A stretch of DNA of 64,000 nt from Candidatus Kryptoniota bacterium (lineage in GTDB: Bacteria > Bacteroidota > Ignavibacteria > Kryptoniales > JAKASW01): positions 1-64,000 of the forward strand of contig DATCTN010000026.1 in NCBI GenBank assembly GCA_036567965.1, read 5' to 3'. The position numbers and the translations under genes were made by a program. Positions 7,224-60,361 of the stretch are shown here, in pieces. The number at the start of each line of letters is the position of its first letter. Positions within the stretch are counted from its first letter, which is position 1. The notes under the pieces were generated by a model that ran no database searches, was not told where the DNA came from, and saw only the letters and a list, made by a program, of their open reading frames with translations.

Positions 7224-7300
7224 TCTTACCCTCTTTCCTTACCCATCTCCAACGAAATAATTGTGAAGCCAGGCTGCTTATCCGTTGCGGAGGGGGCTTT

Positions 7301-44529: not shown

Positions 44530-45813
44530 GTGAGGGTTGTGCAGATTCCAGAGGGTCTACAAAGGGTTTTGGGACGCAGAAGAAGAGGCAAGCGAAATGT
44601 GTCGCCATCTTTAACTGCCGAAGAGTTTCTTCGATCAATTACTTTAATTCCTGATATCGATCAGCTGCTGGGTCATTTTACGTCTAAATTTGCTGAAATG
44701 TTCGCGGCGGATTCTATATACCTTGTTTTGCTTGAGCCTGTAACAAATCGATACGTGATCAGGAGAACGAAGGGAGGAAAGCCGAGCCTTGTCGGGCGGT
44801 TCGGGTTCCTTCGCACAGATAATCTCATCAAGTGGCTTAATGTCAACAGGCGGCCGTTGAATGTCGGCATTCAGGGTGAAGTTGTCTCGTTTCTCGACGC
44901 GGCGGAACAGAAGCTTCTTGCGGACGCGTCAATCCAGGTAGTCATTCCTCTGATCGTGATAAATCGGCTGACGGGGGTCCTTTTCGTAGGCAGGGACAAC
45001 AACAAAAGGAGGTATTCAAGCGAGGAGGAGAGCATGATGCAGAGCCTTGTTTCGCAAAGTGCGCTCGCCATCGAATATGCTATGATATACCAGTTCCAGG
45101 AAGATAAACTGAAACGTCTATTCCACGCTGACAAGATGATGACGGTAGGTGAACTTGCCGCAGGAGCAGCACACGAGATACGCAATCCGCTCGCCGCAAT
45201 CCGAAGTACGGTTCAGTATTTGAAGAAGGATCTTGCGGGCGAAAAGAGTAAGCTTGCCGATGGAATAATCGAAGAAGTTGATCGCATCGACAAAATTATA
45301 AAAGGGCTCCTGTCTTTCAGCCGGATATCTGAGCTGCACATGGAACCGCTGGAACTCAATTTAGTGTTGGAGCAGACGATTTCACTTTTGGATTTGGAGA
45401 TCAAGAAGCACAATATAGAGCTTGTGAGAGACTTCAGGCTCGCGGATTCGCGGATTAAGGGAGACGGCGCTCAATTGAAGCAGGTATTCCTGAACATACT
45501 TCTCAACGGCATACAGGCCATGGAAAGCAGCGGATGCCTGAGCATAATAACGGCGGAGTCGGCCGATCAGAGTGGTGCGATAGAGGTCTCGGTACTCGAC
45601 ACCGGCCCCGGAATTCCGCAGGCAGAGCTAGCGAGGGTGTTTGATCCTTTTTACACGACTAAAGAAAACGGAACCGGCCTCGGCCTTTCAATATCATACG
45701 GGATAATCAGCAGGCATGGCGGAGAGATTCAGATCAAGAACGGAGCGGATCAAAAGAAGCGCGGCACATGCGTGACCATCACGCTTCCAAGAGATTCGAC
45801 GAAAGGACAATGA
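44530..45813 (+). CDS. NtrB-like sensor histidine kinase with GAF domain
   Basis: A 427-residue cytoplasmic kinase. Residues about 25-190 form a GAF domain (LLGHFTSKFAEMFAADSIYL, VVIPLIVINRLTGVLFVGRD). HisKA follows with phospho-acceptor His in GAAHEIRNPLAAIRSTVQYL, then HATPase (NILLNGIQAM, DTGPGIP, GTGLGLSI). The start is GTG 44530 or GTG 44539. Its stop overlaps the ATG of an NtrC-like regulator (ATGA), so the two form a two-component pair. The signal is unknown. Confidence 0.9.
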   Translation: MRVVQIPEGLQRVLGRRRRGKRNVSPSLTAEEFLRSITLIPDIDQLLGHFTSKFAEMFAADSIYLVLLEPVTNRYVIRRTKGGKPSLVGRFGFLRTDNLIKWLNVNRRPLNVGIQGEVVSFLDAAEQKLLADASIQVVIPLIVINRLTGVLFVGRDNNKRRYSSEEESMMQSLVSQSALAIEYAMIYQFQEDKLKRLFHADKMMTVGELAAGAAHEIRNPLAAIRSTVQYLKKDLAGEKSKLADGIIEEVDRIDKIIKGLLSFSRISELHMEPLELNLVLEQTISLLDLEIKKHNIELVRDFRLADSRIKGDGAQLKQVFLNILLNGIQAMESSGCLSIITAESADQSGAIEVSVLDTGPGIPQAELARVFDPFYTTKENGTGLGLSISYGIISRHGGEIQIKNGADQKKRGTCVTITLPRDSTKGQ

Positions 45814-47210
45814 CAGAAATACCGACAGGCAAGAAGCGCGTTCTGGTCGTCGATGACGAAAAGCGTATACGCCAGATATTGACCACAATTCTATCCGACG
45901 AGAATTACGATGTCGCCAGCGCGAGCGATGGGCTCGAAGCACTTAATATCATACAGGACTTCATGCCGCAGGTAATAATTGTCGATCTTCAGATGCCTCG
46001 CATGCACGGAATTGAAGTGATAGATCAGGTGACGAAGATGGATAAGCACATTGTGCCGATAATTCTCACTGCTCACGGGTCGATCGAATCGGCAGTGCAA
46101 GCGACGAAACACGGCGTGTACGATTACCTGACGAAGCCGTTCGATAACGAGCAGATGCTTCTAGTGGTCGGCCGCGCGATGGAACACCACCGGCTCACTG
46201 CGGAGGTAGATGAACTAAAGAAAAAGCTCGGCAGTAAGTACGGGCTCGATTCGATAATCGGGGATAGCAAGCCGATGCAGAAGGTGCGCGCAGAAATAAA
46301 GAGGATCGCGGGTGCGGACGCCGTGGTACTTATCGAGGGCGAAAGCGGGACAGGGAAAGAATTGGCCGCCCGGGCGATCCACTATGAAAGCAGCAGAAAG
46401 AATTCTCCTCTCGTGATCGTGGACTGCGGATCCATTCCAATGACCATTATTGAAAGCGAGTTTTTCGGACATGAAAGGGGCGCATTCACGGACGCGCGCG
46501 AGCAGAGAATAGGGAAGTTCGAAGAGGCTGATACCGGCTCAATTTTTCTGGACGAGATCGGGGAACTTCCGCTCAATGCTCAGACTAAGCTTCTCAGGGT
46601 TCTCCAGGAAAAAGAATTTACGCGAGTCGGGGGAACGGGCCCTTTGAAAGTTGACGTTCGCGTGATCGCGGCGACCAACAAGAATCTCGAACAACGAGTG
46701 AAGGCCGGGAAATTCAGGGAAGACCTTTTCTATCGGCTGAACGTGCTCCGGCTTCGCCTTCCTCCCTTGCGTGAACACAAAGAAGACATTCCCCTGTACG
46801 CCCGGCATTTCGTCGAGAAACACCGCGGGACGATTCGCCGCGGAGCTTGTGAGTTTTCCCCTAAGGCCATCGAACTCCTTGCGGCTGATGAGTGGGGCGG
46901 CAATATCCGCCAGCTCGAGAATGCAATCCAGCGCGCAATGCTCTCGATGCAGGGCGAGCGGATAGAGGTTTCTGACTTCTCTTTCCTGACTACTGAGCGT
47001 GTGAGCGCTCCGCTTCGGTACGATCCGGAACTGGGACTGATAAAATACATCGCATCGCTCGCAAAGGTCGCGGAAAGAAAAATCATTCTGGATACTCTTG
47101 AAGAAGAAGATTGGAACAGGACCGCCGCTGCCTCGAAGCTGAAGCTTAGCAGGCGAAGACTATTTGATAAAATGCAGGAGTATAATATAGAAGCGCCGCC
47201 GGATACCTGA
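45810..47210 (+). CDS. NtrC-family sigma-54-dependent response regulator
   Basis: A 466-residue regulator. Receiver domain: VLVVDDEKRIRQILTTIL, VIIVDLQMPRMHGIEVI (phospho-acceptor Asp in IVDLQMP), LTKPFDN. AAA+ domain: GESGTGKELAARAIHYES (Walker A), HERGAFTDAREQRIGKFEEA (the sigma-54 contact loop reads GAFTDA instead of GAFTGA), SIFLDEIGELPLNAQTKLLR. Fis-type HTH at the end: RTAAASKLKLSRRRLFDKM. It activates sigma-54 promoters when phosphorylated by the adjacent kinase. Targets could include the sigma-54 promoters at 47411 and 53701 (inference). Confidence 0.9.
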   Translation: MTEIPTGKKRVLVVDDEKRIRQILTTILSDENYDVASASDGLEALNIIQDFMPQVIIVDLQMPRMHGIEVIDQVTKMDKHIVPIILTAHGSIESAVQATKHGVYDYLTKPFDNEQMLLVVGRAMEHHRLTAEVDELKKKLGSKYGLDSIIGDSKPMQKVRAEIKRIAGADAVVLIEGESGTGKELAARAIHYESSRKNSPLVIVDCGSIPMTIIESEFFGHERGAFTDAREQRIGKFEEADTGSIFLDEIGELPLNAQTKLLRVLQEKEFTRVGGTGPLKVDVRVIAATNKNLEQRVKAGKFREDLFYRLNVLRLRLPPLREHKEDIPLYARHFVEKHRGTIRRGACEFSPKAIELLAADEWGGNIRQLENAIQRAMLSMQGERIEVSDFSFLTTERVSAPLRYDPELGLIKYIASLAKVAERKIILDTLEEEDWNRTAAASKLKLSRRRLFDKMQEYNIEAPPDT

Positions 47211-47234
47211 GCTTCTGTGAAGAGCAGGCATCCG
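47200..47234 (+). terminator. Possible terminator hairpin of the kinase/regulator operon
   Basis: CGGAT-a-CCTG pairs with CAGG-c-ATCCG around an inner TTC/GAA stem. The regulator stop codon lies in the left arm and a T-rich stretch follows. Confidence 0.5.
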
Positions 47235-47321
47235 TTGTTCTGAAATACTTTTCCCCTCTTAGTTTTTCGTCGTGAAGTTCTCGTCGTGATGCAATTAAGC
47301 CTGTCGGAATGGTTCTCCGGC

Positions 47322-47366
47322 AAGTGGGCAATAGATTTCCCAAAAAAACGATAAATCCGCCCACTT
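47322..47366. promoter_or_regulatory. Inverted half-sites, putative sigma-54 activator site 1
   Basis: AAGTGGGC (47322-47329) and GCCCACTT (47359-47366), outer G to outer G 40 bp. The right arm read on the other strand is AAGTGGGCGGATTT, matching AGTGGGCGGTTT at 53608. It lies 49 bp upstream of the sigma-54 promoter at 47411, the usual place of an upstream activating site. Confidence 0.7.
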
Positions 47367-47410
47367 TGGATTAGCCGCTATCGAATTCATTCAAAAATTG
47401 AGGTTTTGCT

Positions 47411-47428
47411 ACGGCATTGGTCTTGCAC
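47411..47428 (+). promoter_or_regulatory. Sigma-54-like promoter P1
   Basis: GG (47413-47414), ten bases, GC (47425-47426) within CGGCATTGGTCTTGCACA. It keeps GGCAT and TTGCA of the consensus TGGCAC-N5-TTGC. It drives toward the small ORF at 47615 and the activator gene at 47842. Confidence 0.65.
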
Positions 47429-47614
47429 ACATTTTCAGTATGGCGTTGGAACCAAGCGCAAGGCTTGCACAAGCCGGGCGTTTCCGCACTCGAAGAGCTG
47501 AAGGGCGTGTCGCGCACGTTGTTTACTAAACAAAGAGCATACCCTTCCGACGTACTCTTTTCCACGTCGTGCGGAACTGTCCCCTTCCAAATGAGAACCG
47601 CGGGTGATCACAAC

Positions 47615-47839
47615 ATGAAGCACAGCAATCCATTCATCGGAGCAGCGTCCGCTATGCTTCATGAAGCAAGAAAGAATGCCTTAATCGGAAAACCGGGACC
47701 GAACCATTTGAACGGTGGTGGAGAAGAGCGTCCATCTTCTCTTTGCGGACCCGGTGTCGTTGTCCCCGGGTTGCTGAAGTGGATGGAGAATTCTCTTGGT
47801 TCCAACAGCTTCTGGTTCGAAAAAATGTTAAACAGATAG
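47615..47839 (+). CDS. Candidate small peptide gene (second precursor-like ORF)
   Basis: Seventy-four residues, located between sigma-54 promoter P1 and the activator gene. The start reads MKHSNPFIGAASAMLHEARK; compare MFNPLGFASLSTLEAN in the Cys-rich peptide at 51353: both have NP(L/F), then A-S, then L and E-A. The remainder is Gly/Pro-rich with one Cys (SSLCGPGVVVPG) and a Trp/Phe-rich end. A weak ribosome binding site (GGGTGA) precedes the ATG. It ends two bases before the activator start. It could be a precursor or a regulatory leader peptide; I cannot exclude a chance ORF. Confidence 0.4.
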   Translation: MKHSNPFIGAASAMLHEARKNALIGKPGPNHLNGGGEERPSSLCGPGVVVPGLLKWMENSLGSNSFWFEKMLNR

Positions 47840-47841
47840 GG

Positions 47842-48786
47842 ATGGTCCAAATGAAGAGCGATCCAAGAGAAATAGTGGTCGGCAGCCAGGAAATGCGGCA
47901 GGTAATGTCGCTGGCCGAGAGAGCTGTCCGTAATGACTTTGCGGTTCTCCTGCTGGGAGAAAGCGGAGTAGGGAAGGAAGTTATCGCCAGGTACATTCAT
48001 CAGCGAAGCGCCAGGAGCGATGGCCCATTCGTTGCTGTGAATTGCGGGGCGATTCCTGAAACTCTATTCGAAGCCGAACTCTTCGGCTTCGAGCGAGGGG
48101 CGTTCACAAATGCTTTCGCTTCCCACCGGGGGCATTTCGAACAGGCACATCATGGTACAATTCTTCTCGACGAGGTTTCAGAGCTCCAGCTTGCATTGCA
48201 GGTGAAACTTCTTCGCGTACTGGAAGAGAAATCTGTCACGCGAATCGGCGCGGAGAGAGAAATCCAGGTAGACGCCCGAATCATTGCTGCGAGCAACGTC
48301 AATCTCCAGAATCTCGTAAGAGAAGGAAAATTCCGGAAGGACTTGTATTACAGGCTTGCCGTATCGATTATCTTCATCCCACCTCTCCGGGAGCGTAAAG
48401 GAGATATTGAGTCCCTTTCAAATTGCTTCCTGAGAAAGTACACTACGATGAAGAAAACACTCAGCCGTGAAGCGCTGCTGAAACTCACCCACTATGAGTG
48501 GCCGGGAAATGTCCGTGAATTGGAATACTGCATCGTCCGATCGATCATCGACAGCGACGGGAGGGAAATCATCAAGGCGGATGAAATTCATTTCCTGGAG
48601 GATGATATCCATTCGGGGAGTACGATCGAACGCAGAGCATACGAGGAGGCATTGAGAAACGCGAGTGGCAACATCAACAGCGTCTCTCGTCAGCTTGGTG
48701 TGCACCGCAACACTGTTTATAACAGGATTAGAAGGCTGAACATCGACCTCTTCCGATACAGGAACGGTCATACTGTACCCCAGTAA
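47842..48786 (+). CDS. PspF-like sigma-54-dependent activator without sensor domain
   Basis: About 314 residues. It begins directly with the AAA+ domain (GESGVGKEVIARYIHQRSAR, Walker A; TILLDEVSELQLALQVKLLR, Walker B) and ends in a Fis HTH (SVSRQLGVHRNTVYNRIRRL). The sigma-54 contact loop reads ERGAFTNAFA instead of GAFTGA. No receiver or ligand domain is present, as in PspF, so activity must be controlled by another protein or by its own promoter. ATG 47842 or 47851 are possible starts. It is the local regulator of the peptide locus by position, and would bind the GTGGGC half-sites (inference). Confidence 0.85.
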   Translation: MVQMKSDPREIVVGSQEMRQVMSLAERAVRNDFAVLLLGESGVGKEVIARYIHQRSARSDGPFVAVNCGAIPETLFEAELFGFERGAFTNAFASHRGHFEQAHHGTILLDEVSELQLALQVKLLRVLEEKSVTRIGAEREIQVDARIIAASNVNLQNLVREGKFRKDLYYRLAVSIIFIPPLRERKGDIESLSNCFLRKYTTMKKTLSREALLKLTHYEWPGNVRELEYCIVRSIIDSDGREIIKADEIHFLEDDIHSGSTIERRAYEEALRNASGNINSVSRQLGVHRNTVYNRIRRLNIDLFRYRNGHTVPQ

Positions 48787-48804
48787 CGCGATCAGTTGAA
48801 CATT

Positions 48805-48846
48805 GCGGGCGGGCCCGGGCCGGCGAAAAGCTCGGGCCGCCGCCCC
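48805..48846. terminator. G+C-rich hairpin between convergent genes
   Basis: GCGGGCGGGCCCGGGC (48805-48820) can pair with GCTCGGGCCGCCGCCC (48830-48845), with an AAAA-containing loop. It lies between the activator gene and the convergent operon and probably stops transcription from both sides. Confidence 0.6.
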
Positions 48847-48856
48847 CGGAAGGCTC

Positions 48857-49714
48857 CTAGTCTCTCCTCAATACCAGGTCGCCTAACTTTGCCTGCATCA
48901 CGATGCGCTGGGCCACATCCACCCAGTATGTGATCACGTTTGTATTCCCTGAGCTCTTGTTTGTTACCCGGGCGACGTAGCATTCATGGCCCTGAACGTT
49001 CTCGACACCGGTTACATTGATTTCATTCGCCGTATCTCCATCACTTGCACACTTCCACTCAAAACCTTTCTGCAAAGCCAGCATCCAGGTTCCGAAAAAA
49101 TAATCGAGCGTCGAGTAGTCTGGGAGATCACTCAATTGGCTTACGCTCACACTCGTGCTCGTTCCTTGCTTTGTAGTCAACGTACTTTCGGTAAAAACAA
49201 CTTTTCCTTTCTCATTGACGTATGAGTTGGTAACCAGTTCGGCCACCTTTTCTGAACTGTCCGAGCCCGCATCATACAACGGATTCTTCACTTTTGCCGC
49301 CTGTCGAACGACATAACAATTCTCTTTGTTGTACTCTTTTTTTGAAATGATCGTTATCGTCTGGTTTATAGGGACCGGTTCTCCACGCAGGATGACCTTC
49401 TGTCCGGACTGGACAGCCTTTAGCTCAAACTTGGCCGTTTCAGCATCTCTTGAGATAAAAGAATTGAAGGAAAACTTCTCTCCGGTTTTGAATTGCGGGG
49501 GCTTAACCGCAGCGATGTCAGCCGTTTCGCAAGGCCTGACATCGCAAGTGTTCTGGTGCAAGGAGCTCTTCTCGAGAAATGACAGATTTGGTCCCACAAA
49601 CAATCCGAAAGCGCCGATCAGAATGGTAGTCAGCGCCTCTTTTCGTGACACCGTGGCTCGAGTCCTTGTCGAATCGTGACCCGATCCTTTCTCACCGACA
49701 TTTTCAGTGGACAT
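48857..49714 (-). CDS. Membrane-anchored protein of unknown function in the peptide locus
   Basis: A 285-residue protein with a cytoplasmic N-terminal tail of about 25 residues, one membrane helix (EALTTILIGAFGLFVGPNLS) and a periplasmic beta-rich domain. Motifs include CDVRPCETADIAAVKPPQFK, NCYVVRQAAKVKNPLYDAGS and GHECYVARVTNKSSGNTN, then VITYWVDVAQRIVMQAKLG. The last part loosely resembles DUF3108 or LolA-like folds. Its start overlaps the radical SAM stop by 11 bases, so translation is coupled. It might hold, process or receive the modified peptide outside the cytoplasm, or give immunity; none of this can be shown from sequence. Confidence 0.65.
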   Translation of the reverse strand: MSTENVGEKGSGHDSTRTRATVSRKEALTTILIGAFGLFVGPNLSFLEKSSLHQNTCDVRPCETADIAAVKPPQFKTGEKFSFNSFISRDAETAKFELKAVQSGQKVILRGEPVPINQTITIISKKEYNKENCYVVRQAAKVKNPLYDAGSDSSEKVAELVTNSYVNEKGKVVFTESTLTTKQGTSTSVSVSQLSDLPDYSTLDYFFGTWMLALQKGFEWKCASDGDTANEINVTGVENVQGHECYVARVTNKSSGNTNVITYWVDVAQRIVMQAKLGDLVLRRD

Positions 49715-51227
49715 CGGAAGTCTCCTTTACTTTGTTCTTTTCCATTTCATCGATTTCTTCAAGTTTGCGTTCGTATTCTGCTGATGCAGCCTGCATTTTG
49801 TCGAGCGGTATCTTCGCATCCAGCCACATACTGTCGATGGCTGACTTTCTCAGAACAGGGCAAAGCTCTTTATGGTACGCAGTAAGGCTGCCGTATTTTT
49901 CGTAAGCGGTCGCCCTACAGCCGCCCGCGCAAAGATACTTGACCAAGCATCCGTCGCACTCCTTAATCTTATCCACCGTTGCTTCCCTGCACTTGTTCAT
50001 CGCTTCTGATTCCCTGTATATCTTCACGATATCATCCTCAAGTATGTTCCCGGCTCTGAATTCATCTTTGAACATCATAACGCACGGATAAATGTCTCCG
50101 TTGGACACCATGTGAATATCTCCGCTTGCGAAACCACATTGTATCCGCCGTATCCCTTTTTTGATGATCAATTTGTCCCTGCTGTTCACTTCGAGCGGCG
50201 GGAGCTCGTCGCCTCCTAGTTCAAGCCTCAACCCGGCATTGTACATGACATCGCGGTATTGGCGTTCTGTTACTATTGTCTCGATTGGTTTGTGTTCCTT
50301 GTCGTATTCTATCGTTCTCGCAGGCATATACGCGCTCATCCTGTGTATGTCCACACCTATCTCATCTATCAATATCCTGTGAGTCTCCGGCATGCTCCTG
50401 ACATTAGACTTTGCCACGACTGAATTCACCACGAAGTGTTTCGGCCTGTTCTTCGCGAGCAATTTTATTGCGGTCAATGTGCGGTCGTATGACCCTTTTC
50501 CTCTGAAAGCCTCATGCTCCTCCTTGACAATGCTGTCAAAGCTGACCCACACGAAGTCGAATAGCCTGGTAACATCATTGACATTCTGATCATTGATAAG
50601 AGTCCCGTTTGTAACCAAAGCTGTGAAGAAGCCTCTCTGTTTTGCATGAGCGGCCACTTCGAACAGATCCTCTCTGAACATCGGCTCGCCGCCGCAGAAG
50701 GCGACGATTGAAACTCCAAAGTCCCTCAGCCGGTCGAGGGCGAAAATCGATTCCTCCGTCGTCATTTCACGGGCCGATTTTCCATTTCGTTTCCTGCTAT
50801 CCGCATTATAACAGTAGCTGCACGAGAGGTTGCACTTCTCTGTATTTGAAAAATAGACGGCGATCGGGTGATCGGCCGCGAGAGTAGTTGATTGCTTATG
50901 GAAGACGTATTTGTCGACATGCACCATATGAGCTTCCACCATTCCCTTTATGAACACGAGAACCTTATCACGAATGTCGACCGGATTGAGGTCGAATCTT
51001 TCGGCAAGGTCTTGCACAACTTCTTCGAGACGCGTGTGCGTCTCGAGGGACTCCATCACTTCTTTTCCCGATTCGTTCAATCTCACCCAGACATGGTTCT
51101 CGGGATCGAAGAAGAGATGCCAGCCTTCTTCGCCGGGGAAGTGTACCATCCTGGGCGGAAGGAGAAGTCTTCCGTTTTCCAGGTCGTGATATGAGTCCTC
51201 ATTTAAGTTCATCGTGTCAGCGTCCAT
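49704..51227 (-). CDS. Radical SAM/SPASM peptide maturase with PqqD-like recognition domain
   Basis: About 507 residues from MDADTMNLNEDSYHD (AAAGGAAT upstream). Residues about 20-95 are a PqqD-like RiPP recognition element: VHFPGEEGWHLFFDPENHVW and RFDLNPVDIRDKVLVFIKGM. The radical SAM cluster motif CNLSCSYCY (CX3CX2C) follows at about 130, with FCGGEPMFREDLFE next. The C-terminal SPASM region has CGFASGDIHMVSNGDIYPC and CDGCLVKYLCAGGCRATAYE, then HKELCP, for extra [4Fe-4S] clusters. This layout is that of sactipeptide/ranthipeptide and PqqE-like maturases. Its substrate is probably the 42-residue Cys-rich peptide encoded just upstream on the same strand. Confidence 0.9.
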   Translation of the reverse strand: MDADTMNLNEDSYHDLENGRLLLPPRMVHFPGEEGWHLFFDPENHVWVRLNESGKEVMESLETHTRLEEVVQDLAERFDLNPVDIRDKVLVFIKGMVEAHMVHVDKYVFHKQSTTLAADHPIAVYFSNTEKCNLSCSYCYNADSRKRNGKSAREMTTEESIFALDRLRDFGVSIVAFCGGEPMFREDLFEVAAHAKQRGFFTALVTNGTLINDQNVNDVTRLFDFVWVSFDSIVKEEHEAFRGKGSYDRTLTAIKLLAKNRPKHFVVNSVVAKSNVRSMPETHRILIDEIGVDIHRMSAYMPARTIEYDKEHKPIETIVTERQYRDVMYNAGLRLELGGDELPPLEVNSRDKLIIKKGIRRIQCGFASGDIHMVSNGDIYPCVMMFKDEFRAGNILEDDIVKIYRESEAMNKCREATVDKIKECDGCLVKYLCAGGCRATAYEKYGSLTAYHKELCPVLRKSAIDSMWLDAKIPLDKMQAASAEYERKLEEIDEMEKNKVKETSDVH

Positions 51228-51281
51228 CAGGTCTCTATTCCTTTCGGTCGATTCATTCTCAAGTTCGGTGCCCTCCCATCG

Positions 51282-51312
51282 TTGGGCACCCCGCAATCGG
51301 CGGAGTGCCCAA
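51282..51312. promoter_or_regulatory. Hairpin between the peptide gene and the maturase gene
   Basis: TTGGGCAC (51282-51289) pairs with GTGCCCAA (51305-51312), with a further CCG/CGG inside. It lies in the only sizeable gap of the operon. No T run follows on the reverse strand, so it is more likely an mRNA-protecting or processing hairpin than a terminator, which would let peptide exceed maturase. Confidence 0.6.
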
Positions 51313-51352
51313 AAATGGCAAGGGTATATCCTCCCGGTACGTTATACTGGGC

Positions 51353-51481
51353 TCAGTTTGTGGCAATGAATATGGTCACCGTGACGGGGACGGAGCAAAC
51401 GCATGTGCAGTTGCATCCTGGATTGGTTGTCATGTTTGCCTCTAATGTGGAGAGGCTGGCAAACCCGAGCGGATTGAACAT
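51353..51481 (-). CDS. Cys-rich 42-residue RiPP precursor peptide
   Basis: A short gene on the reverse strand with ribosome binding site AAAGGAGGTG (51490-51499) at ideal distance from the ATG. The leader is MFNPLGFASLSTLEANMTTN; the core has NPGCNCTCVCS, with Cys at 23, 25, 27 and 29, then VPVTVTIFIATN, with Val/Ile at 31, 33, 35, 37, 39. The reading was checked codon by codon to the TGA at 51353. It sits between the exporter and the radical SAM/SPASM gene, the usual precursor position. The four alternating Cys followed by alternating aliphatic residues suit nested thioether cross-links of the sactipeptide/ranthipeptide type (inference). I do not recognise a described family with this CxCxCxC pattern. 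Overlooked easily because of its size. Confidence 0.75.
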   Translation of the reverse strand: MFNPLGFASLSTLEANMTTNPGCNCTCVCSVPVTVTIFIATN

Positions 51482-51535
51482 TTGCTTTTCACCTCCTTTG
51501 GGTAGTGATATTAATTGTCAGAATGTTTTGTGAGG

Positions 51536-53362
51536 TCATAATTCGACTGTTACTACTCTTTCTCCCTTTGCGCCACGGTTCACGATTACTTTTGGCTGAC
51601 CGGGAAGAAGGGCGTCTGTTTGTCTTTCATCCCCGTGGGAAGAGAATTGCCCGTCGAAGAGCCGTCGGTATGTCAGGCAGTTCACGTACAACTCTTCATG
51701 TGTCCCCGAGCCGATAATGGCACCTTTTTCGATAACCATTATCCTGCTCGCCGACATGACCGTTGAAAACCTATGCGCGATTACGAACGTCGTTCTGCCC
51801 TTCATTAAGTTCGCAAGGGCGTCGTGTATGAGATTCTCAGATCGTGAATCGACGGAAGAGGTCGCCTCGTCAAGGATAAGTATCCTCGGATTCCTCAAGA
51901 TTGCTCTCGCGATCGCGATACGCTGCCTTTCGCCTCCCGAAAGCTGGCTGCCTCTTTCTCCCACTTCAGTGTCGTAACCCATAGGGAGCCGCAAAATGAA
52001 CTCATGCGCATTCGCCGCCTTTGCCGCCCGAACGATTTCCTCCTCGCTGGCCTCCAGCTTTCCATATTTGATGTTTTCTTTTACTGATGCGCTGAAGAGA
52101 AACGTGTCTTGCATTACGATCCCGAACTGCTTAAGGAAGGTATCTCGTTTGAGTTGCTTTATGTCGATTCCATCAATGAAGATTCCACCGTCGTAAGAAT
52201 CGTAAAATCCCGAAAGGAGGCTGAGCAACGTGCTCTTGCCCGCCCCGCTTTCTCCGACAAGCGCGATTACATCTCCCGGTCTCACATCAAAACTGATATC
52301 ACGGAGGACCGGGACGTCAGGCTTATATGAGAACGAGACATTCCGGAACTTGACGTTCCCCCTAAACACTATGTCAATGGCATCGGCATCGTTCCTGTCC
52401 TCCGCGCATTCGTCCATAAGTCCGAAGACTCTCTCCGCAGCCGCAAGCGAGGTCTGTACCCCTAAGTTTATTCCGATAAGATTTCGGATTGGTCCGAAAA
52501 TGTTCACAGTGTAAGCGGAGAACGCCATCAATTGTCCAAGCGTGAGCATGCCACCGATGACCTGGTAGCTGCCATACCAGAGTATCGAGACGCCGGCAAA
52601 GGTGGTGCAGAGGAGTGCGATCGCAACGCTCATGGACGAGAGTACACCGAGGCGGATGTTGAGGTCTTTGTTCCTTTCGATTCCCGATTCGACCGTCCGA
52701 GAACGGAACTTCTCCAGCCCGAATGTTCTTATGAGGCGGATGCCGGCAAAACTCTCCTGGACATCCCCGTAGACTTTTGATTTTTCCTCCTGGACTTTGT
52801 GCGCGACGTCTTTTATGTGCTTGTTGAAAACCTGAACGCCTATCGCAAAAACCGGAGCGACAGATATCGCGATGAGAGTCAGACGCCAGTTAATTGCGAA
52901 TGCGATCAGGACCGTACCCGAAACAATAATGAGGTTTATGAGTGCGACTATGACTGTGTCACCGACAAGCGTGCTCGCAGCAGTCGTGTCCGCCAGGATT
53001 CTGCTTGCCAGATATCCAGTCTTTGTTTCGTCGAATATGGCGACGGGGAGTCGCTGGATTTTCTCATACAATCCCTTCTGCATCGTGCAGACAACCTCTT
53101 CGCGGAACCCGACGAGAAGCCTTCCCCTGACAAAGTCGATTAATGATCGCAGGAAATACAACCCGAGGAAGCCCGCGCCGAACTTTGAGAGTAGTACGGG
53201 GTCTTTCCGCGGGATGACGACATCGATGAGAAGAAGCAGGACGAGGGGCGTCGCGAGATCGATCGCCGCGCTGACCACGGTCAGTATCCCTGCTGCGATA
53301 AATGACCTGGCGTGCGGCTTGGCGAATGGAAGTATCCGTTTTATTATCGTCCTGTTCTGCAT
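51536..53362 (-). CDS. ABC exporter (fused membrane and ATPase domains), no peptidase domain
   Basis: A 608-residue half-transporter. Six membrane helices (about 20-310; e.g. SFIAAGILTVVSAAIDLATP) are followed by an ATPase domain: GESGAGKSTLLSLLSGF (Walker A), LSGGERQRIAIARAIL (signature), ILILDEATSSVD (Walker B), then the H-loop VIAHRFSTVMSA. It resembles MsbA-type and RiPP exporters. The N-terminal C39 leader peptidase found in many peptide exporters is absent, so the leader must be removed by another protease. It is the first gene of the reverse-strand operon exporter-peptide-maturase-membrane protein. A 54-base gap separates it from the peptide gene. Confidence 0.9.
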   Translation of the reverse strand: MQNRTIIKRILPFAKPHARSFIAAGILTVVSAAIDLATPLVLLLLIDVVIPRKDPVLLSKFGAGFLGLYFLRSLIDFVRGRLLVGFREEVVCTMQKGLYEKIQRLPVAIFDETKTGYLASRILADTTAASTLVGDTVIVALINLIIVSGTVLIAFAINWRLTLIAISVAPVFAIGVQVFNKHIKDVAHKVQEEKSKVYGDVQESFAGIRLIRTFGLEKFRSRTVESGIERNKDLNIRLGVLSSMSVAIALLCTTFAGVSILWYGSYQVIGGMLTLGQLMAFSAYTVNIFGPIRNLIGINLGVQTSLAAAERVFGLMDECAEDRNDADAIDIVFRGNVKFRNVSFSYKPDVPVLRDISFDVRPGDVIALVGESGAGKSTLLSLLSGFYDSYDGGIFIDGIDIKQLKRDTFLKQFGIVMQDTFLFSASVKENIKYGKLEASEEEIVRAAKAANAHEFILRLPMGYDTEVGERGSQLSGGERQRIAIARAILRNPRILILDEATSSVDSRSENLIHDALANLMKGRTTFVIAHRFSTVMSASRIMVIEKGAIIGSGTHEELYVNCLTYRRLFDGQFSSHGDERQTDALLPGQPKVIVNRGAKGERVVTVEL

Positions 53363-53446
53363 TTCACTCTCGCCTGGTTCTCAGCTGTGCGCCGGTGCAT
53401 CCATAGTGACGCCTCACCTGCGTGGATGAATTATGCTAGTGTAGAG

Positions 53447-53461
53447 TCAACAGGTGTGCCA
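53447..53461 (-). promoter_or_regulatory. Imperfect sigma-54-like promoter for the exporter operon
   Basis: On the reverse strand TGGCACACCTGTTGAC: a perfect TGGCAC -24 element, then TTGA where TTGC is expected at -12. It is 85 bp before the exporter start and shares the half-sites at 53608-53653 with the divergent promoter. Confidence 0.4.
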
Positions 53462-53588
53462 TGATGTGAGTGCGAATTCGCAAAGTTAATGCGGCACCGG
53501 ATCTGTTTTCCACGCCCGGCTGCACATCGCGCGCCGACTCATCGTGGATGTCCTGATCCCGCTGGAGATTAACTGCACATGCGGCCCC

Positions 53589-53602
53589 TTGTGCATGCAC
53601 AA
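53589..53602. promoter_or_regulatory. Perfect 14-bp palindrome TTGTGCATGCACAA
   Basis: An exact palindrome in the divergent promoter region, six bases from the sigma-54 activator half-sites. Suits a dimeric regulator; not found beside promoter P1. Confidence 0.5.
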
Positions 53603-53607
53603 TACAT

Positions 53608-53653
53608 AGTGGGCGGTTTCCTTCTCAAAAGGTGGGAAGCAAACCGCCCACCT
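53608..53653. promoter_or_regulatory. Inverted half-sites, putative sigma-54 activator site 2
   Basis: AGTGGGCGGTTT (53608-53619) and AAACCGCCCACCT (53641-53653), outer G to outer G 42 bp. The half-site matches that at 47322-47366, and the distance to the -24 box (51 bp) is nearly the same as there (49 bp). Confidence 0.75.
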
Positions 53654-53700
53654 AAAAAGGCAAATTCCCCGAAATCGAACTGAAAAAAGCGATTTGCCAA

Positions 53701-53716
53701 TGGCATAGCGATTGCA
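53701..53716 (+). promoter_or_regulatory. Sigma-54 promoter P2 of the permease operon
   Basis: TGGCATAGCGATTGCA: GG at 53702-53703, ten bases, GC at 53714-53715. A close match to the sigma-54 consensus, about 77 bp before the permease start. Confidence 0.8.
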
Positions 53717-53791
53717 CAAATATTGTAGCGATGAAAAGCCGGATGAATGGAAAACGGATGATGCCATGAAGAAAGCTGAGGTAACTACAGA

Positions 53792-55231
53792 ATGCTGATT
53801 ACGATAGTGAAGAAAGAGATAATGGAGAGCATATTCAGCCTTCGCTTCCCACTCTTTCTACTCGTGGGAGTGATCCTCATACCGATGGGATTCTACGTCA
53901 ATGAAGTGAATTATTCGAAGAGACTCAGCGACTATAACGAGCAGGTGAGATTGCAGGACAAAGCTCTTACTTCCTCCCAGATGTGGGATGTACTTTCGGG
54001 GAGCGTCCCCCTAAAGGGCTTTCTTCCGCCCGCACCCCTCTCTGCATTCGCAGAGGGCCTGGAAAATTCACTTCCGCGGTTCTATACATTCGGCCGCGAC
54101 GGTTTTCAACCCGGTGAGGTACCCCTGGGCGAACGGTCCGTGTTGTCCGAACTTGGAGACCTCGATTTCGCATTCATAGTGCAAATGGTACTCAGTCTTA
54201 TCGTGCTCATGTTCGGGGCGGATGTCATCTCGGGAGAAAAGGAGCTTGGAACACTCCGAGGCATCCTCTCGAACAGCGTGCCCAGGGATGTTGTCCTGTT
54301 CGGAAAGCTGATCGGTGGTTACATCTCAATCTGGCTCCCTTTCACGCTGGCGTTTCTCGCAGGCATACTCTTGCTGAGTTTTACGTCTTTTCCCCTGGGC
54401 AACCCCGATATGCTCTCAAGAGTCCTCATGGTGTTTCTCGCTTCGTCTGTCTTCATGCTTGTCTATTTTTCAATCGGCATCATGATATCTACCAGTACGT
54501 TCAGGACGAGGACATCGCTGGTTGCTATACTAGTCCTTTGGGCATTCTTCCAACTCGTGATACCTAAAGCCAGTAACATGATCGCGGACCTTGTTTATCC
54601 TGTAAGGACAGAGGCGGTGGTGTCGATGCAGAAATCGCTTGCCGCCAACACTCTCGAGAGCGAAAAATCGTCGGTCCTCGGTAAGAAATACGAAGAACTC
54701 TTCGGCGGCGGAAGTTCGCCAATCTCAGCTTCTGCAGCGGCCCAGGACGATTGGAATAAGTACCGCGAGGAGACCGACCGCAAGTACTCCGATGACGTGG
54801 CGGCGCAGCTCAACGCCATCGACGAGGGGTACGACAGGGAACGCGAGTCCCAGGCCCGGATCGGAACCGCAGTCTCCCTCATTTCGCCCGGAGCGGTATT
54901 CAGCAATTTCATAACGGACTTGTGCGGAACCGGTGAATGCGAAAGGCTAGAATACATGGACGCGGTACGCGCGCACCAACAGGTGTTGAACAAGGAGCTC
55001 TTCAGCGCCGTAAAGCAATCACCAATCACAATCCCCGGGCAATCTATGGGTACTAGCGTTTCCGTCCAACGGGTGGTGGATCTGAAATCCCTTCCCGGCT
55101 TTGAAGTGACCACAGCAGGATTTTCTGAAATATTTTCGCGGAATTTTAACGGATTCATGACGCTGGCGTTCTGGCTTATTGTTCCTTTTGCAATAGCATA
55201 CACGAGGTTCATGAGATATGACGTACGATAG
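53792..55231 (+). CDS. ABC-2-type transporter permease
   Basis: A 479-residue membrane protein. Helix 1 (FPLFLLVGVILIPMGFYV) is followed by a long periplasmic loop (about 35-125), then helices at VQMVLSLIVLMFGADVI, YISIWLPFTLAFLAGILLL and VFMLVYFSIGIMI, and LVAILVLWAFFQLVIP. A second long loop (about 265-445, with EKSSVLGKKYEELFGG) precedes the last helix (LAFWLIVPFAIAY). This matches ABC-2 permeases of the NosY/DUF3526 kind. It pairs with the ATPase encoded with a 14-base overlap. It is driven by sigma-54 promoter P2 and may export the peptide or give self-protection. Confidence 0.8.
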   Translation: MLITIVKKEIMESIFSLRFPLFLLVGVILIPMGFYVNEVNYSKRLSDYNEQVRLQDKALTSSQMWDVLSGSVPLKGFLPPAPLSAFAEGLENSLPRFYTFGRDGFQPGEVPLGERSVLSELGDLDFAFIVQMVLSLIVLMFGADVISGEKELGTLRGILSNSVPRDVVLFGKLIGGYISIWLPFTLAFLAGILLLSFTSFPLGNPDMLSRVLMVFLASSVFMLVYFSIGIMISTSTFRTRTSLVAILVLWAFFQLVIPKASNMIADLVYPVRTEAVVSMQKSLAANTLESEKSSVLGKKYEELFGGGSSPISASAAAQDDWNKYREETDRKYSDDVAAQLNAIDEGYDRERESQARIGTAVSLISPGAVFSNFITDLCGTGECERLEYMDAVRAHQQVLNKELFSAVKQSPITIPGQSMGTSVSVQRVVDLKSLPGFEVTTAGFSEIFSRNFNGFMTLAFWLIVPFAIAYTRFMRYDVR

Positions 55232-56009
55232 CCAATTAGTCGTAGAGCAAGCGTCGTCAAGTCCAGCGACGACAGCGGCCGCAGGACCCGTACGTGCAAT
55301 GATCCAGGCGGTCGATCTCACAAAGAGATACGAGGACAATCTACTCGCGCTCGATCACCTCAATCTCGAAATCAAAACCGGCCAAATTTATTGCCTCCTT
55401 GGGGCGAATGGCGCCGGGAAAACCACAGTGATAAACACGTTCTTTAATTTCATCGAGCCGACCAGCGGAACAGCGAAGATCAACGGCTTCGACTGCACGC
55501 TTGAGCCGTTGCAGGCTAAGAAATACGCCGCTTACGTCTCGGAGAATGTAATGCTCTATGGAAATTTCACTGCGAGACAGAACCTCGATTTCTTCACGAG
55601 ACTCGGGTATGGAAAAGAGGTCAGTCGCGAAAGTTGTCATATGGTGATGAGGCAGGTCGGTCTCCCTGAATCGGCATTCGAGAAACGAGTAAAGACATTC
55701 TCGAAAGGTATGCGACAGAAGCTCGGTATCGCTATCGCAATCCTCAAACAGGCGCCAGCACTCATTCTGGATGAACCGACGTCCGGGCTTGATCCGAAAG
55801 CTGCGTCGGATTTCATCGAGCTTTTGTTCAACCTGCGAATGAGTGGCAAGGCGATACTGATGTCGACACATGACGTTTTCAGGGCGAAGGAGATCGCTGA
55901 CACAATTGGAATCATGAAGGAAGGCGTTCTGATCACTGAGAAGAGCAGGGCAGAGTTTCAAGATGAAGACCTTGAGAAACTCTATTTGAAATACATGGAA
56001 GTGGAATGA
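55218..56009 (+). CDS. ABC transporter ATPase
   Basis: A 263-residue ATPase: GANGAGKTTVINTFFNFIEP (Walker A), TFSKGMRQKLGIAIAIL (signature, SKGMRQK as in CcmA/NosF-type ATPases), ALILDEPTSGLDP (Walker B), ILMSTHDVFRAKE (H-loop). The first 27 residues before MIQAVDLTKRYE are extra and may not be translated; ATG 55299 is an alternative start. It powers the permease encoded just upstream. Such ATPases act in export or in immunity to membrane-active peptides. Confidence 0.88.
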   Translation: MTYDSQLVVEQASSSPATTAAAGPVRAMIQAVDLTKRYEDNLLALDHLNLEIKTGQIYCLLGANGAGKTTVINTFFNFIEPTSGTAKINGFDCTLEPLQAKKYAAYVSENVMLYGNFTARQNLDFFTRLGYGKEVSRESCHMVMRQVGLPESAFEKRVKTFSKGMRQKLGIAIAILKQAPALILDEPTSGLDPKAASDFIELLFNLRMSGKAILMSTHDVFRAKEIADTIGIMKEGVLITEKSRAEFQDEDLEKLYLKYMEVE

Positions 56010-56122
56010 GCACTGCATTCTTCCGCAAGATGCTAAGACGGCACAGGAATCCGGTCTCTGGATTCGAGGGCGGAAAAAATGCGGGAAATATTGTGAATGT
56101 GCAAGACACAAGGAGGCGTCCA

Positions 56123-57601
56123 ATGAAAAAGCTATCGATCGTTCTCATACTGATGCTCCTGAGACCGGCAATCGGACAGGTGCTCTACAATCCGAACGAT
56201 GAAAGGTTCAAGTCTCTATACCTTGAGAAAGCCCAGAGCGATTACAAGCTTCAGAAAGATACTTTCGACAGGCAGAAGATCCTGTATGACAAAGGATTGA
56301 TCTCTCAGCAGGAGTTTGAACAATCCGAGGCGGGATTCAAGACGGCGCAGGTAACCTACCAGCAGGCGATACTTTCTCTGGCGTTTGAGCAGCCGCACGT
56401 AACGATCGACAAAGCCATCAAGTACCAGTCAAAGGATGGCTTGATTTACGTCAAGTTGACGCTGAGAAATACGACAAGCGGAATCATCGCCAATGGCGAG
56501 AAGAATGTGGAATCGTTCGGCGATATCCGGACTGACCAGCTTGCTAACATTTATGTATCTCTCCTGAACGATAATCACGCTGTCGTCAGCCAGCCATACG
56601 AAGCCAAGATCGGCATGATGAAATTCAATGAACCTGTTACAGTTGATTTTGTTCTCCTCCAGGATCTCGATTACGTCACGGTCAAGGACGTGTACGGCGA
56701 TAAGTCTGAAGAAAGGAAGATCCTCCTTCAGATGGATGAGAGCGCGAACCGGGTTCTTATCACACCGGACCAGTTTTCACAGGAGGCAGACCTCGGTTCA
56801 CAGGCGAATTACACTATGACTCTCGCGCTGTTCTCCAGCCGCAGCGACATCTACCGTTTGAGCGTCGTGAATCTTCCCAGACAGATAAGCTGGGATTTTG
56901 TGGACGCGCAGAATTCTGAAGGCCGCAATACGAGATTGTCACAGGTGAAGTTCTCTCAGGATGTGAATTCGCGGCAGCTGTCCCTGGCTTTGTACCTTCC
57001 AGATCGATATGACGGGACGACATTCAATGTCGATCAGGCAGTCGAATTCTTTGTCGTCGCGGTTCCGCGTAACGCCGAAGGGCAGACATTTGACGACACG
57101 AAGAAGTATTCCGCATCCGATCTCGACAAGATGCATGTAAGTTACGCGCGACTCGAGCTCGTGCCCAGAGGAGTGGGCAAAATTGTGGTGCAGGCGACCA
57201 ATTATTACCAGGAAATAAGACCCGGCGACAAAGTGACGATGAACCTGACGGTTCTCAATGATGGGACAAGACCGCTGGATAACATTCGCCCGCATGTGGA
57301 CGCGCCGGTAAACTGGACGCCAGTAGTCACACCGGATCTTATTGAGTCTCTTCAGCCGGGCAAAGACCAGAATGTGGTTGTCACATTAATCCCTCCGTCC
57401 GGACTGGAAGTGGGCGACTATGAAGCTACCGTAAAGACTTCAGCGTTCTCCAGCAACAGGCGGGTCGACGGCGAGAACAAGAGCATACGTATACACATAA
57501 GTTCGAAATCGAACGTCCTCGGGACGGTGATACCCGTAATGATGATACTCGGAATCGTTGCCGGAGCCGTGGTTCTCGGTGTGAAAACCGGGAGGAAGTG
57601 A
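56123..57601 (+). CDS. Exported coiled-coil/NEW3-domain protein with C-terminal anchor
   Basis: About 492 residues from MKKLSIVLILMLLRPAIGQV, a signal peptide preceded by AAGGAGG. Residues about 35-90 (LEKAQSDYKLQKDTFDRQKI, then LYDKGLISQQEFEQSEAGFK) form a helical hairpin like the coiled coil of HlyD-type adaptor proteins. The middle is beta-rich. Residues about 380-460 match a NEW3 (alpha-galactosidase-associated) domain: IRPGDKVTMNLTVLNDGTRP and QPGKDQNVVVTLIPPSGLEV. A C-terminal helix (VIPVMMILGIVAGAVVLGV) anchors it in the inner membrane. It could be the periplasmic partner of the ABC permease. An upstream Met at 56006 precedes sequence without a signal peptide and is rejected. Confidence 0.75.
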   Translation: MKKLSIVLILMLLRPAIGQVLYNPNDERFKSLYLEKAQSDYKLQKDTFDRQKILYDKGLISQQEFEQSEAGFKTAQVTYQQAILSLAFEQPHVTIDKAIKYQSKDGLIYVKLTLRNTTSGIIANGEKNVESFGDIRTDQLANIYVSLLNDNHAVVSQPYEAKIGMMKFNEPVTVDFVLLQDLDYVTVKDVYGDKSEERKILLQMDESANRVLITPDQFSQEADLGSQANYTMTLALFSSRSDIYRLSVVNLPRQISWDFVDAQNSEGRNTRLSQVKFSQDVNSRQLSLALYLPDRYDGTTFNVDQAVEFFVVAVPRNAEGQTFDDTKKYSASDLDKMHVSYARLELVPRGVGKIVVQATNYYQEIRPGDKVTMNLTVLNDGTRPLDNIRPHVDAPVNWTPVVTPDLIESLQPGKDQNVVVTLIPPSGLEVGDYEATVKTSAFSSNRRVDGENKSIRIHISSKSNVLGTVIPVMMILGIVAGAVVLGVKTGRK

Positions 57602-57736
57602 GAAAATGCCGCTCAGCAGCCGTATTTCCGGAATTTCGATTCAGGTAGTATCGCGAAACGCTTTCACCCCGAAAGCAGCGGTCTCGTCGGTTCGGAATTC
57701 ACCGCTCTGTCGGAGGTTTTGGTGAGAGAGGACTCG

Positions 57737-60361
57737 ATGCCGTCGTTCAAGCGTAACCGGGAGGAAGTCGTGACTGATGAAAATCTTCATCGGTCGATCT
57801 TCGAGCAAAATCCCCTTCCGATGCTAATACATGATCCCGACTCACAGATGTTCATCGGAGTGAACGACGCGGCCATAAGGAAATATGGATACTCCCGCGA
57901 GGAATTTCTGAAGATGTCGATCGAGGATCTCGGGACCGATGAGAAGGAATCCGATATCGATCGCGAGGACGGGCAATCGAGCAATGGCGAAAAGATCGGA
58001 CATCACAGGCTGAAGAGCGGCGAGTTAATAGATGTCGAGCTGACTTCTCATGGGCTTGAGTTCAGCGGACACAAGGCGGTGTTTACGGTGGTACACCAGA
58101 TAAACAGCCGGACTAAGGCCGCTCCGAAAACACGACGCGACATACTGGAAGAGATACCTGTCGGCTATTACAGGACCGTGCCCCAGCGATCTTTCGTCGA
58201 GGTCAATCATGCGTTCGCGCAGATGCTGGGTTATACAACCGAGGAGATGCTCTCACTCGATGTCCCGGACGAGCTCTGCTTCAATCGGGACGAGACGATG
58301 GTGGGGAAAGTCGGCCAGGACTTTCCGTTCAAGCCGAAAATTTTCCGGCTCCGAACCAGAGAAGGGAACGAGGTATACATTGAAGATTTTTCAAGATATG
58401 TCAGAGACAACGAGGGAAAGGTCGTTTTCAGGGAAGGCATTTGCAGGCGTGTCACGGATGTCGAAGCGGCGGAAGAGAAATCGATCGAGCTGGAAGAGGG
58501 ACATCGCGCACTTGTGGATCAGATGCCGGTCGCCGTTGCCGTCCACACCGACTGGAAACTCGCTTACCTCAACAGAGCAGCGGAGAAGTTAACAGGTACC
58601 GCTGAACCCGGGGGGGCTGTCGGCAGGTCGTTTCTCGAATTTGTACATCCGGAATCATTGGCAGCAGCACTAGAACATGTCGAGGCCATTATGAATAATA
58701 TTGAGAACATTGACACTGCGGAGCTGAAAATGCTCCGCCAGGACGGATCCACCGCGTCAGTCGAAGTGACGAGTATGCATGCGACTTATCACGGGAAACC
58801 TTCTATTCAAAGCGCGTTCCGGGACGTAACCGAACAGAGGCAGCTTGAAGATCGGATGCATCTTCAGAGTGCCGCCCTGAATGCCGTGACCAACGCCGTG
58901 GTCATTACGGACCGGAGCGGAAAGGTCGAATGGATCAATCCTGCCTTTGAGAAACTAACCGGCTACAACGCCCTTCAGGCGGTCGGTGCGGATATCGGAG
59001 ACCTTGTCGGGTCTGGAAAACAGGATGAGAGCTTCTACAAAGAAATGTGGAATACGATACTTACCGGCAAACCTTGGCGGGGTCAGCTTGTAAATAGGCG
59101 CCGCGATGGAGGTCTTTACAATGAATGGATGACTGTCACCCCTGTGGCGGGCGACGACGGGCAGATAGCGCATTTCATCGCGACTAAGGAAGATATAACT
59201 GAGCGCAAATCGTTGGAAGATGAGCTCACCCAAGCGCAGAAACTCGACGCGATCGGGAGACTGGCAGGCGGTATCGCGCATGACTACAATAATATACTCG
59301 GCGTGATTCTCGGATATGGAGAGCTCATCAAGGGACGGCTGCAGGAAGAGGAATCGGTCCGTAAACAGCTCGACGCCATAATTGCTGCGGCGCGAAGAGG
59401 GTCTGACCTTACTAAACAACTTCTCTCGTTTGCACGGCGGGAAGCTGTATCTCCCAAGGTGCTGGATGTGAATTCATCTATAACATCGATCATGGAAATG
59501 CTTCATCAACTTATAGGCGAGAACATTTCGCTCGTGTTCAATCCAGGAAGGAACCTGTGGAACGTTGAAGCCGATCCGTCCCAGCTTGACCAGATACTGG
59601 TTAATCTTGTGACTAACGCCCGGGACGCAATTGATGATGTAGGAACGATCACCATAGAGACCGCGAACGTCCTCCCCGGCGAAGATCGTTTAGTCGGTCT
59701 TACTGACCGTATGCGCGGCGGATCGATAAGGATCTCGGTTACCGATACCGGCAAAGGGATTGAGCGAGGAATGTTGAAAGAAATATTCGAGCCGTTCTTT
59801 ACCACGAAGGTGAAAGGGCACGGCACGGGTCTCGGCCTCTCGATGGTATACGGGATAGTGAAGCAGAACGATGGATCGATAGAAGTAAAGAGTGAGCCGG
59901 GGATGGGGACAACGTTCGACATATACTTTCCGTCCGCGGCGGGGGAACCGGAAAAGTCGGCAGAATCGTCGGCAGACGCGATACAGAAGGGAAACGCGAC
60001 GGTTCTGATAGTCGAGGATCAGTCGGACCTGCTCGAATCGGCGAAGAAGAGTCTCGAAGAATACGGGTACAGGGTGTTCGCTGCTCTGGATCCGCATGAC
60101 GCGATCGCAATGTGCAAAGAGTTCAGCGGGAGCATCGACCTTCTTCTCGCGGACGTGATAATGCCGGCGATGAACGGCAGCGAGCTGAGTCGCAGGATCG
60201 GTAAGATAAAGCCGGGAATTAAGACACTGTTCATGTCGGGGTACGCTGCAGACATGCTCGAGCCTCCGCGCGGAGTCGGCAAAGGAGTGGATTTCATACA
60301 GAAGCCCTTCACACCCCACGACCTCGCCGGCAAGGTGCAGAAAGTGTTGGAGAAAGGATGA
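57737..60361 (+). CDS. Cytoplasmic four-PAS hybrid histidine kinase
   Basis: About 874 residues, no membrane helix. Four PAS domains run from 10 to 490 (FEQNPLPMLIHDPDSQMFIG; VGYYRTVPQRSFVEVNHAFA; LVDQMPVAVAVHTDWKLAYL; NAVTNAVVITDRSGKVEWIN). HisKA has the phospho-acceptor His in GGIAHDYNNILGVIL. HATPase: NLVTNARDAIDD, VTDTGKGIERGM, GHGTGLGLSMVYG. Receiver domain: VLIVEDQSDLLESAKKSLEE, LLADVIMPAMNGSELS, FIQKPFTPHDLA. ATG 57737 follows AGAGGAC. It lies downstream of the NEW3 gene on the same strand after 135 bases, so a link with the peptide locus is possible but not shown. Confidence 0.9.
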   Translation: MPSFKRNREEVVTDENLHRSIFEQNPLPMLIHDPDSQMFIGVNDAAIRKYGYSREEFLKMSIEDLGTDEKESDIDREDGQSSNGEKIGHHRLKSGELIDVELTSHGLEFSGHKAVFTVVHQINSRTKAAPKTRRDILEEIPVGYYRTVPQRSFVEVNHAFAQMLGYTTEEMLSLDVPDELCFNRDETMVGKVGQDFPFKPKIFRLRTREGNEVYIEDFSRYVRDNEGKVVFREGICRRVTDVEAAEEKSIELEEGHRALVDQMPVAVAVHTDWKLAYLNRAAEKLTGTAEPGGAVGRSFLEFVHPESLAAALEHVEAIMNNIENIDTAELKMLRQDGSTASVEVTSMHATYHGKPSIQSAFRDVTEQRQLEDRMHLQSAALNAVTNAVVITDRSGKVEWINPAFEKLTGYNALQAVGADIGDLVGSGKQDESFYKEMWNTILTGKPWRGQLVNRRRDGGLYNEWMTVTPVAGDDGQIAHFIATKEDITERKSLEDELTQAQKLDAIGRLAGGIAHDYNNILGVILGYGELIKGRLQEEESVRKQLDAIIAAARRGSDLTKQLLSFARREAVSPKVLDVNSSITSIMEMLHQLIGENISLVFNPGRNLWNVEADPSQLDQILVNLVTNARDAIDDVGTITIETANVLPGEDRLVGLTDRMRGGSIRISVTDTGKGIERGMLKEIFEPFFTTKVKGHGTGLGLSMVYGIVKQNDGSIEVKSEPGMGTTFDIYFPSAAGEPEKSAESSADAIQKGNATVLIVEDQSDLLESAKKSLEEYGYRVFAALDPHDAIAMCKEFSGSIDLLLADVIMPAMNGSELSRRIGKIKPGIKTLFMSGYAADMLEPPRGVGKGVDFIQKPFTPHDLAGKVQKVLEKG

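Follow-up and report, generated by a model that had tools for sequence, protein, structure and literature searches.

The window (the whole stretch of 64,000 nucleotides that was analysed) contains a cassette of about 16 kb (44530-60361), in which a peptide of 42 amino acids with a CxCxCxC core is encoded beside a radical SAM/SPASM maturase. With a probability of roughly two in three, this locus specifies a sactipeptide-type RiPP pathway with its own leader, in which a maturase fused to a recognition element (RRE) would act on the 42-aa precursor, thioether rings would be formed, the product would be exported, and expression would be under sigma-54 control. The locus most likely belongs to the CxC (StsA/StsB-like) kind of sactipeptides as a divergent form with its own leader, a fused recognition domain, and a regulatory cassette. 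The features of the cassette and their state in a congeneric genome (G006) are as follows.

44530-45813, plus strand: GAF histidine kinase, left cassette end; collinear in G006
45768-47210, plus strand: NtrC-type response regulator; collinear in G006
47411-47427, plus strand: sigma-54-promoter-like site before the activator gene; G006 counterpart 14.7 of 15.7
47851-48786, plus strand: sigma-54 activator without a receiver domain; collinear in G006
48857-49714, minus strand: DUF3108/LolA-like protein, start overlapping the maturase stop; window genome only
49704-51227, minus strand: maturase with an N-terminal PqqD-like RRE, a radical SAM core (CNLSCSYC), and a full SPASM domain (Pfam, NCBIfam); homologue in G006
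51272-51352, minus strand: stable RNA hairpin separating the precursor from the maturase, stem GGGCACUCCGC...GCGGGGUGCCC, no T run after it; -42.1 kcal/mol, z -5.1
51353-51481, minus strand: predicted precursor peptide gene, 42 aa; leader MFNPLGFASLS(T/S)LEA conserved, core CxCxCxC (CxCxC in the G006 homologue)
51536-53362, minus strand: MsbA-like ABC exporter, transmembrane and ATPase parts, without a C39 peptidase domain; 62% syntenic homologue in G006 only
53446-53462, minus strand: weaker sigma-54-promoter-like site ATGGCACACCTGTTGAC before the exporter-precursor-maturase operon; aligned G006 site AAGGCACGCCGATTGCG
53609-53651, no strand: paired TGGGC...CCCA elements forming a 19-nt inverted repeat, candidate sites for activator binding; similar pairs in G006
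53700-53716, plus strand: sigma-54-promoter-like site ATGGCATAGCGATTGCA before the ABC-2 operon; aligned, weaker site in G006
53792-55231, plus strand: ABC-2 type permease that may serve in self-protection or as a second export pump; 56% homologue, within the genus in G006 only
55218-56009, plus strand: ABC ATPase, partner of the permease; 73% in G006
56006-57601, plus strand: membrane-anchored protein with a NEW3 domain (Pfam); collinear in G006
57719-60361, plus strand: PAS hybrid histidine kinase with a receiver domain, right cassette end; collinear in G006

The cassettes of the window and G006 were collinear with 55-74% identity, in the order kinase, regulators, maturase, precursor, exporter, ABC-2 genes, NEW3 protein, and PAS kinase, and the genes flanking them differed on either side. 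Orthologue-level copies of the maturase, exporter, ABC-2 permease, first kinase, and NEW3 protein were found together in two of the 13 genus genomes and in none of the other 11; the cassette behaves as a unit that is gained and lost. The DUF3108/LolA-like gene was absent from all 12 other congeneric genomes, the G006 cassette included, and is therefore accessory at most. To the right of the cassette, two same-frame ORFs (60716-61732 and 61736-63991) give, taken together, a single BNR-repeat protein whose C-terminal sorting domain is of the YPNPFNPST type; the in-frame TGA that splits it (61730-61732) is likely a nonsense mutation or an assembly error.

The peptide encoded at 51353-51481 is MFNPLGFASLSTLEANMTTNPGCNCTCVCSVPVTVTIFIATN, and its ORF is preceded by a strong ribosome binding site, CAAAGGAGGTGAAAAGCAAATG. 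The 42 codons, the well-placed ribosome binding site, the CxCxCxC core, and the location with an ABC exporter on one side and a PqqD/radical SAM/SPASM protein on the other were all as given in the preliminary description, with the neighbours confirmed by Pfam matches above cutoffs. Among the 672 window ORFs of 25-80 aa, this was the only one with CxCxCxC, compared with 0 of 18,809 in Markov sequence of the same dinucleotide make-up. Beside the G006 maturase, a 42-codon ORF at the corresponding position and with the same orientation encodes MFNPLGFASLSSLEAQAALQPDSCSCFCSYPVTIAINFEPPK; the motif there is CxCxC. In its PDSCSCFCS stretch, three of the four window cysteines are kept, and the first, N-terminal one has no counterpart. 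The four-cysteine run is a new form seen in the window peptide, the conserved core being only CxCxC, and all four cysteines were rejected as a group-defining feature because the G006 homologue has three. The core common to both peptides reads CxCxCSxPVT, with Cys, Ser, Pro, Val, and Thr conserved between the two.

In the maturase, PF04055, PF13186, and PF05402 each scored above the cutoff, so that the domains of the sactipeptide class (radical SAM, SPASM/Twitch, and RRE) are all present; CNLSCSYC and the complete SPASM cysteine set were kept in the G006 homologue. The start was taken at the ATG at 51227, with further in-frame starts upstream. The best NCBIfam model was StsB, aligned over nearly the full length, with 204 bits for the window and 211 for G006, both below the 625-bit membership cutoff of NF045574; the next families reached 137 and 143 bits. 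A search of 60 related genomes returned exactly one further copy, that of G006, with 57% identity, and the maturase profile matched two of 395 phylum-wide and two of 294 class-wide genomes. Two scans of genome contigs, in which the maturase and the two-sequence alignment served as queries, found no relative, which is weak evidence of absence since the peptide patterns were exact and narrow. A scan of viral contigs found no relative either. Among annotated plasmids, the best relative was a protein of Streptantibioticus cattleyicolor (28% identity, E 4e-31).

Links of the C-C, ether, and non-alpha thioether kinds are likewise made by radical SAM/SPASM enzymes, and two alternative chemistries were weighed against the sactipeptide reading. 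In a pathway of the ranthipeptide type, cysteine sulphurs would be joined to beta or gamma carbons nearby in small local or un-nested rings, as in SCIFF, freyrasin, and NxxcA. The SCIFF maturase CteB (5wgg) was the best match among solved structures (E 1.9e-22), and CteA is reported with Cys32-Thr37 or Cys32-Thr34 links (PMC8326336); a Cys-to-Thr link over five residues has the spacing of the conserved CSxPVT, where Thr stands five residues after the last Cys. However, 204 bits with the StsB sactisynthase model stood against 82 with the SCIFF maturase model (TIGR03974, cutoff 425) and 95 with PapB, and the cysteine run follows neither the SCIFF nor the CX3D pattern; this alternative was considered rather unlikely. 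Still less probable is a cysteine run that binds a metal or cofactor, or serves as a chaperoned redox element, while the enzyme modifies another residue by a C-C or ether link or in making a PQQ/mycofactocin-like cofactor. CxCxC is able to bind metals in general, several radical SAM/SPASM enzymes with PqqD form non-thioether links, and the mycofactocin maturase model gave 123 bits; however, the conserved Tyr, Glu, Trp, or Lys used by such enzymes is missing from both cores, and the nearest enzyme family works on CxC precursors.

The ORF itself is, on comparative evidence, a true gene. In codons 1-15, the window and G006 DNA differed at 11 third positions, one first position, and no second position, and amino-acid changes accumulated in the rest of the gene (NG86 dN 0.59, dS 0.74); this codon-change pattern is that of a constrained leader and a faster-changing core. 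The ribosome binding site was conserved in G006, and the precursor was the sole short intergenic ORF of the cassette kept in both genomes (blastp-short E 8e-16; runner-up 0.008 or worse). Four grounds support the status of the gene: this codon-position pattern, synteny, a ribosome binding site kept in both genomes, and the fact that no other short intergenic ORF is conserved. Since the precursor is known from two loci only, its conservation rests on a single comparison. A chance reading frame beside a maturase acting on something else, which might be argued from an ORF of 42 codons in no family and in two copies, is very improbable on these same four grounds, as the codon pattern and a G006 copy that is not near-identical (57% maturase identity) refute it.

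The defining elements of a RiPP, namely, an encoded precursor, a conserved leader, a variable core, and a co-occurring modifying enzyme, were found at two loci. The earlier reading of the pair as RiPP precursor and maturase is thus well supported by the kept leader, the faster-changing core, synteny, and the all-or-none occurrence with the maturase and exporter. No NCBIfam family matched the 42-codon peptide, and the precursor profile gave nothing credible elsewhere in the phylum-wide genomes. Weak profile matches in three other genomes of the phylum were rejected, being located within other reading frames or on the strand opposite to them, or containing a stop. A scan for the motif TTYAAYCCNYTNGGNTTY matched 69 of the 294 class genomes, so the leader was not separable from chance by this means.

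In the proposed sactipeptide mechanism, the leader MFNPLGFASLS(T/S)LEA would be bound by the PqqD-like domain at the maturase N-terminus, and the enzyme would take hydrogens from acceptor residues downstream of the cysteine run and join them to the cysteine sulphurs, so that three or four thioether rings would lie nested in one another. The register predicted for the window peptide is C29-T34, C27-T36, C25-F38, and C23-A40, with the CxCxCxC strand folding back on the VTVTIFIA strand, and that for G006 is C28-T33, C26-A35, and C24-N37. This register, drawn by the constant-sum rule of thurincin H, was preferred because in both homologues its acceptors are of types that sactipeptides are known to use, the neighbouring one offering only Val and Ile in the window; as there are two sequences only, covariation cannot test it. 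AlphaFold models (pLDDT 42 for the maturase and 51 for the peptide) were too poor for a fold search or for the hairpin register. Nested pairing is known from thurincin H, in which four cysteines pair with acceptors at a constant sum of 32 (4-28, 7-25, 10-22, and 13-19), and from ruminococcin C, in which a CxC donor pair has nested acceptors (PMC8172795). For the innermost link of the register, which spans the conserved CSxPVT from Cys to a Thr five positions further, the SCIFF peptides offer a precedent (PMC8326336). A compact beta-hairpin ladder, in which alternate residues of a CxCxCxC strand are joined by thioethers to alternate residues of a facing TxTxFxA strand by a self-contained, RRE-fused StsB-like enzyme in a sigma-54-switched Bacteroidota sactipeptide, is a tentative proposal with the odds against it; such a topology is not described in the reviews consulted. 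Against the sactipeptide reading as a whole stand the maturase score far under the StsB cutoff, the precursor that matches no StsA model, and the first cysteine that is not conserved.

The peptide would then be secreted by the ABC exporter. No gene for a leader protease was found within the cassette, and the leader may be cut by a protease encoded outside it or be retained. The ABC-2 pump may protect the producer or act in the response, and the sensor kinases may switch expression via the sigma-54 activators. By the usual reading of such a gene set, the peptide would be exported as an antagonist or signal, with the ABC-2 pump providing self-protection or a stress response.

RpoN is encoded in the source genome. 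A consensus sigma-54 scan of the whole window was not above chance alone, and the promoters of the cassette are predicted from the position of the sites and their conservation with G006, whose corresponding sites in front of the activator gene and the biosynthetic operon come close to the consensus. From the paired TGGGC...CCCA elements to the plus-strand sigma-54-like sites downstream of them, the distance is about 90 bp. Similar tandem elements (TGGGnA...TTnCCCA, with a distance of 24 bp in G006) were observed in both regulatory regions of the cassette, at 7206-7250 and 12731-12773 of the G006 locus (L005) and at 47325 and 53609-53651 of the window. Their similarity in both regions suggests that a single activator may control the two. 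The gap of about 640 bp between the response regulator and activator genes (47211-47850) holds a sigma-54-like site, a TGGGC/CCCA element, and an ORF (47417-47839) without a G006 counterpart. G006 has an RNA hairpin at the corresponding position (z -2.9), and a strong hairpin likewise separates precursor and maturase at the S. cattleyicolor StsB locus (z -4.6); these hairpins plausibly set a high precursor-to-enzyme ratio.

The S. cattleyicolor maturase is a true StsB (738 bits against NF045574). Directly upstream of its gene, a 36-codon ORF with a good ribosome binding site encodes MVSSWIKPDITSAEPQMLPPACSCGCGSGGGGGAGS, which contains CxCxC; the maturase is followed by a stand-alone PqqD protein and an ABC-2 transporter. 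The ORF lies at 3741-3851 of the locus (L041) on plasmid pSCAT (NC_016113.1), where the plasmid gene table has no feature. Its peptide matched the StsA model NF045558 with E 2.8e-5, below the cutoff, and was also brought up by the model NF045559, "StsA-related sacti_RiPP_CxC". The window and G006 peptides did not match NF045558 or NF045559 at E up to 10, and the window peptide did not align with that of S. cattleyicolor beyond the motif. Precord et al. (2023) are said to have described the StsA/StsB/StsC pathway experimentally, and StsB reportedly forms sactionine links. Given the S. cattleyicolor StsB locus and the NCBIfam models, the pairing of a CxCxC precursor with an StsB-like maturase is of a kind already described. 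The initial claim of a probable new RiPP, of which no such precursor had been described, was therefore overstated: StsB is the nearest family, an StsB locus has a CxCxC precursor, and StsA and sacti_RiPP_CxC families exist. New here are the CxCxCxC form with its four cysteines, the leader, and the gene context.

The locus would carry the CxC type of sactipeptide beyond actinomycetes into a Bacteroidota-type lineage, where the leader is another one, the recognition domain is fused to the maturase, and control would be by sigma-54. The term Bacteroidota-type is based on the YPNPFNPST-type sorting domains in secreted proteins of the genome. The two precursor/maturase pairs, which have diverged in nature and carry three and four cysteines, would allow a direct test of the ring order. 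Both the precursor and the family were missed by standard genome annotation and existing family models.

Among known systems, SCIFF (CteA/CteB) shares with the locus an RRE-SPASM maturase and the reported Cys-to-Thr link at i+5; however, SCIFF has six dispersed cysteines in 45 residues, compared with four in the window and three in G006 peptide, and the window maturase falls outside its family by score. Ruminococcin C (RumC/RumMC) is similar in its CxC donor pair and nested downstream acceptors, and differs in its two separate hairpins, longer precursor, and different cysteine spacing in the second hairpin. In thurincin H and subtilosin A, a run of donor cysteines likewise precedes acceptors that pair in reverse order, the cysteine plus acceptor sum staying constant; unlike here, their cysteines have a spacing of i, i+3 or more within a hairpin of helical type, and the leaders and maturase families are other ones. 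The window maturase differs from that of StsA/StsB/StsC by its 28% identity, well under the family cutoff, and by the fused RRE (PF05402), whereas the S. cattleyicolor maturase lacks PF05402 and its PqqD protein is separate. StsC, the recognition element of the actinomycete pathway, binds a WxxP motif of StsA (PMC12710340), whereas the window leader is unrelated and has no WxxP. A Val/Ile/Thr strand follows the window core in place of Gly/Ser, and the context is one of sigma-54 and sensor-kinase genes in a Bacteroidota-type genome. The two systems are alike in a radical SAM/SPASM maturase alignable over nearly its full length, in a short precursor, encoded immediately before the maturase, whose CxCxC run is C-terminal, in an RNA hairpin between the two, and in the transporter genes alongside.
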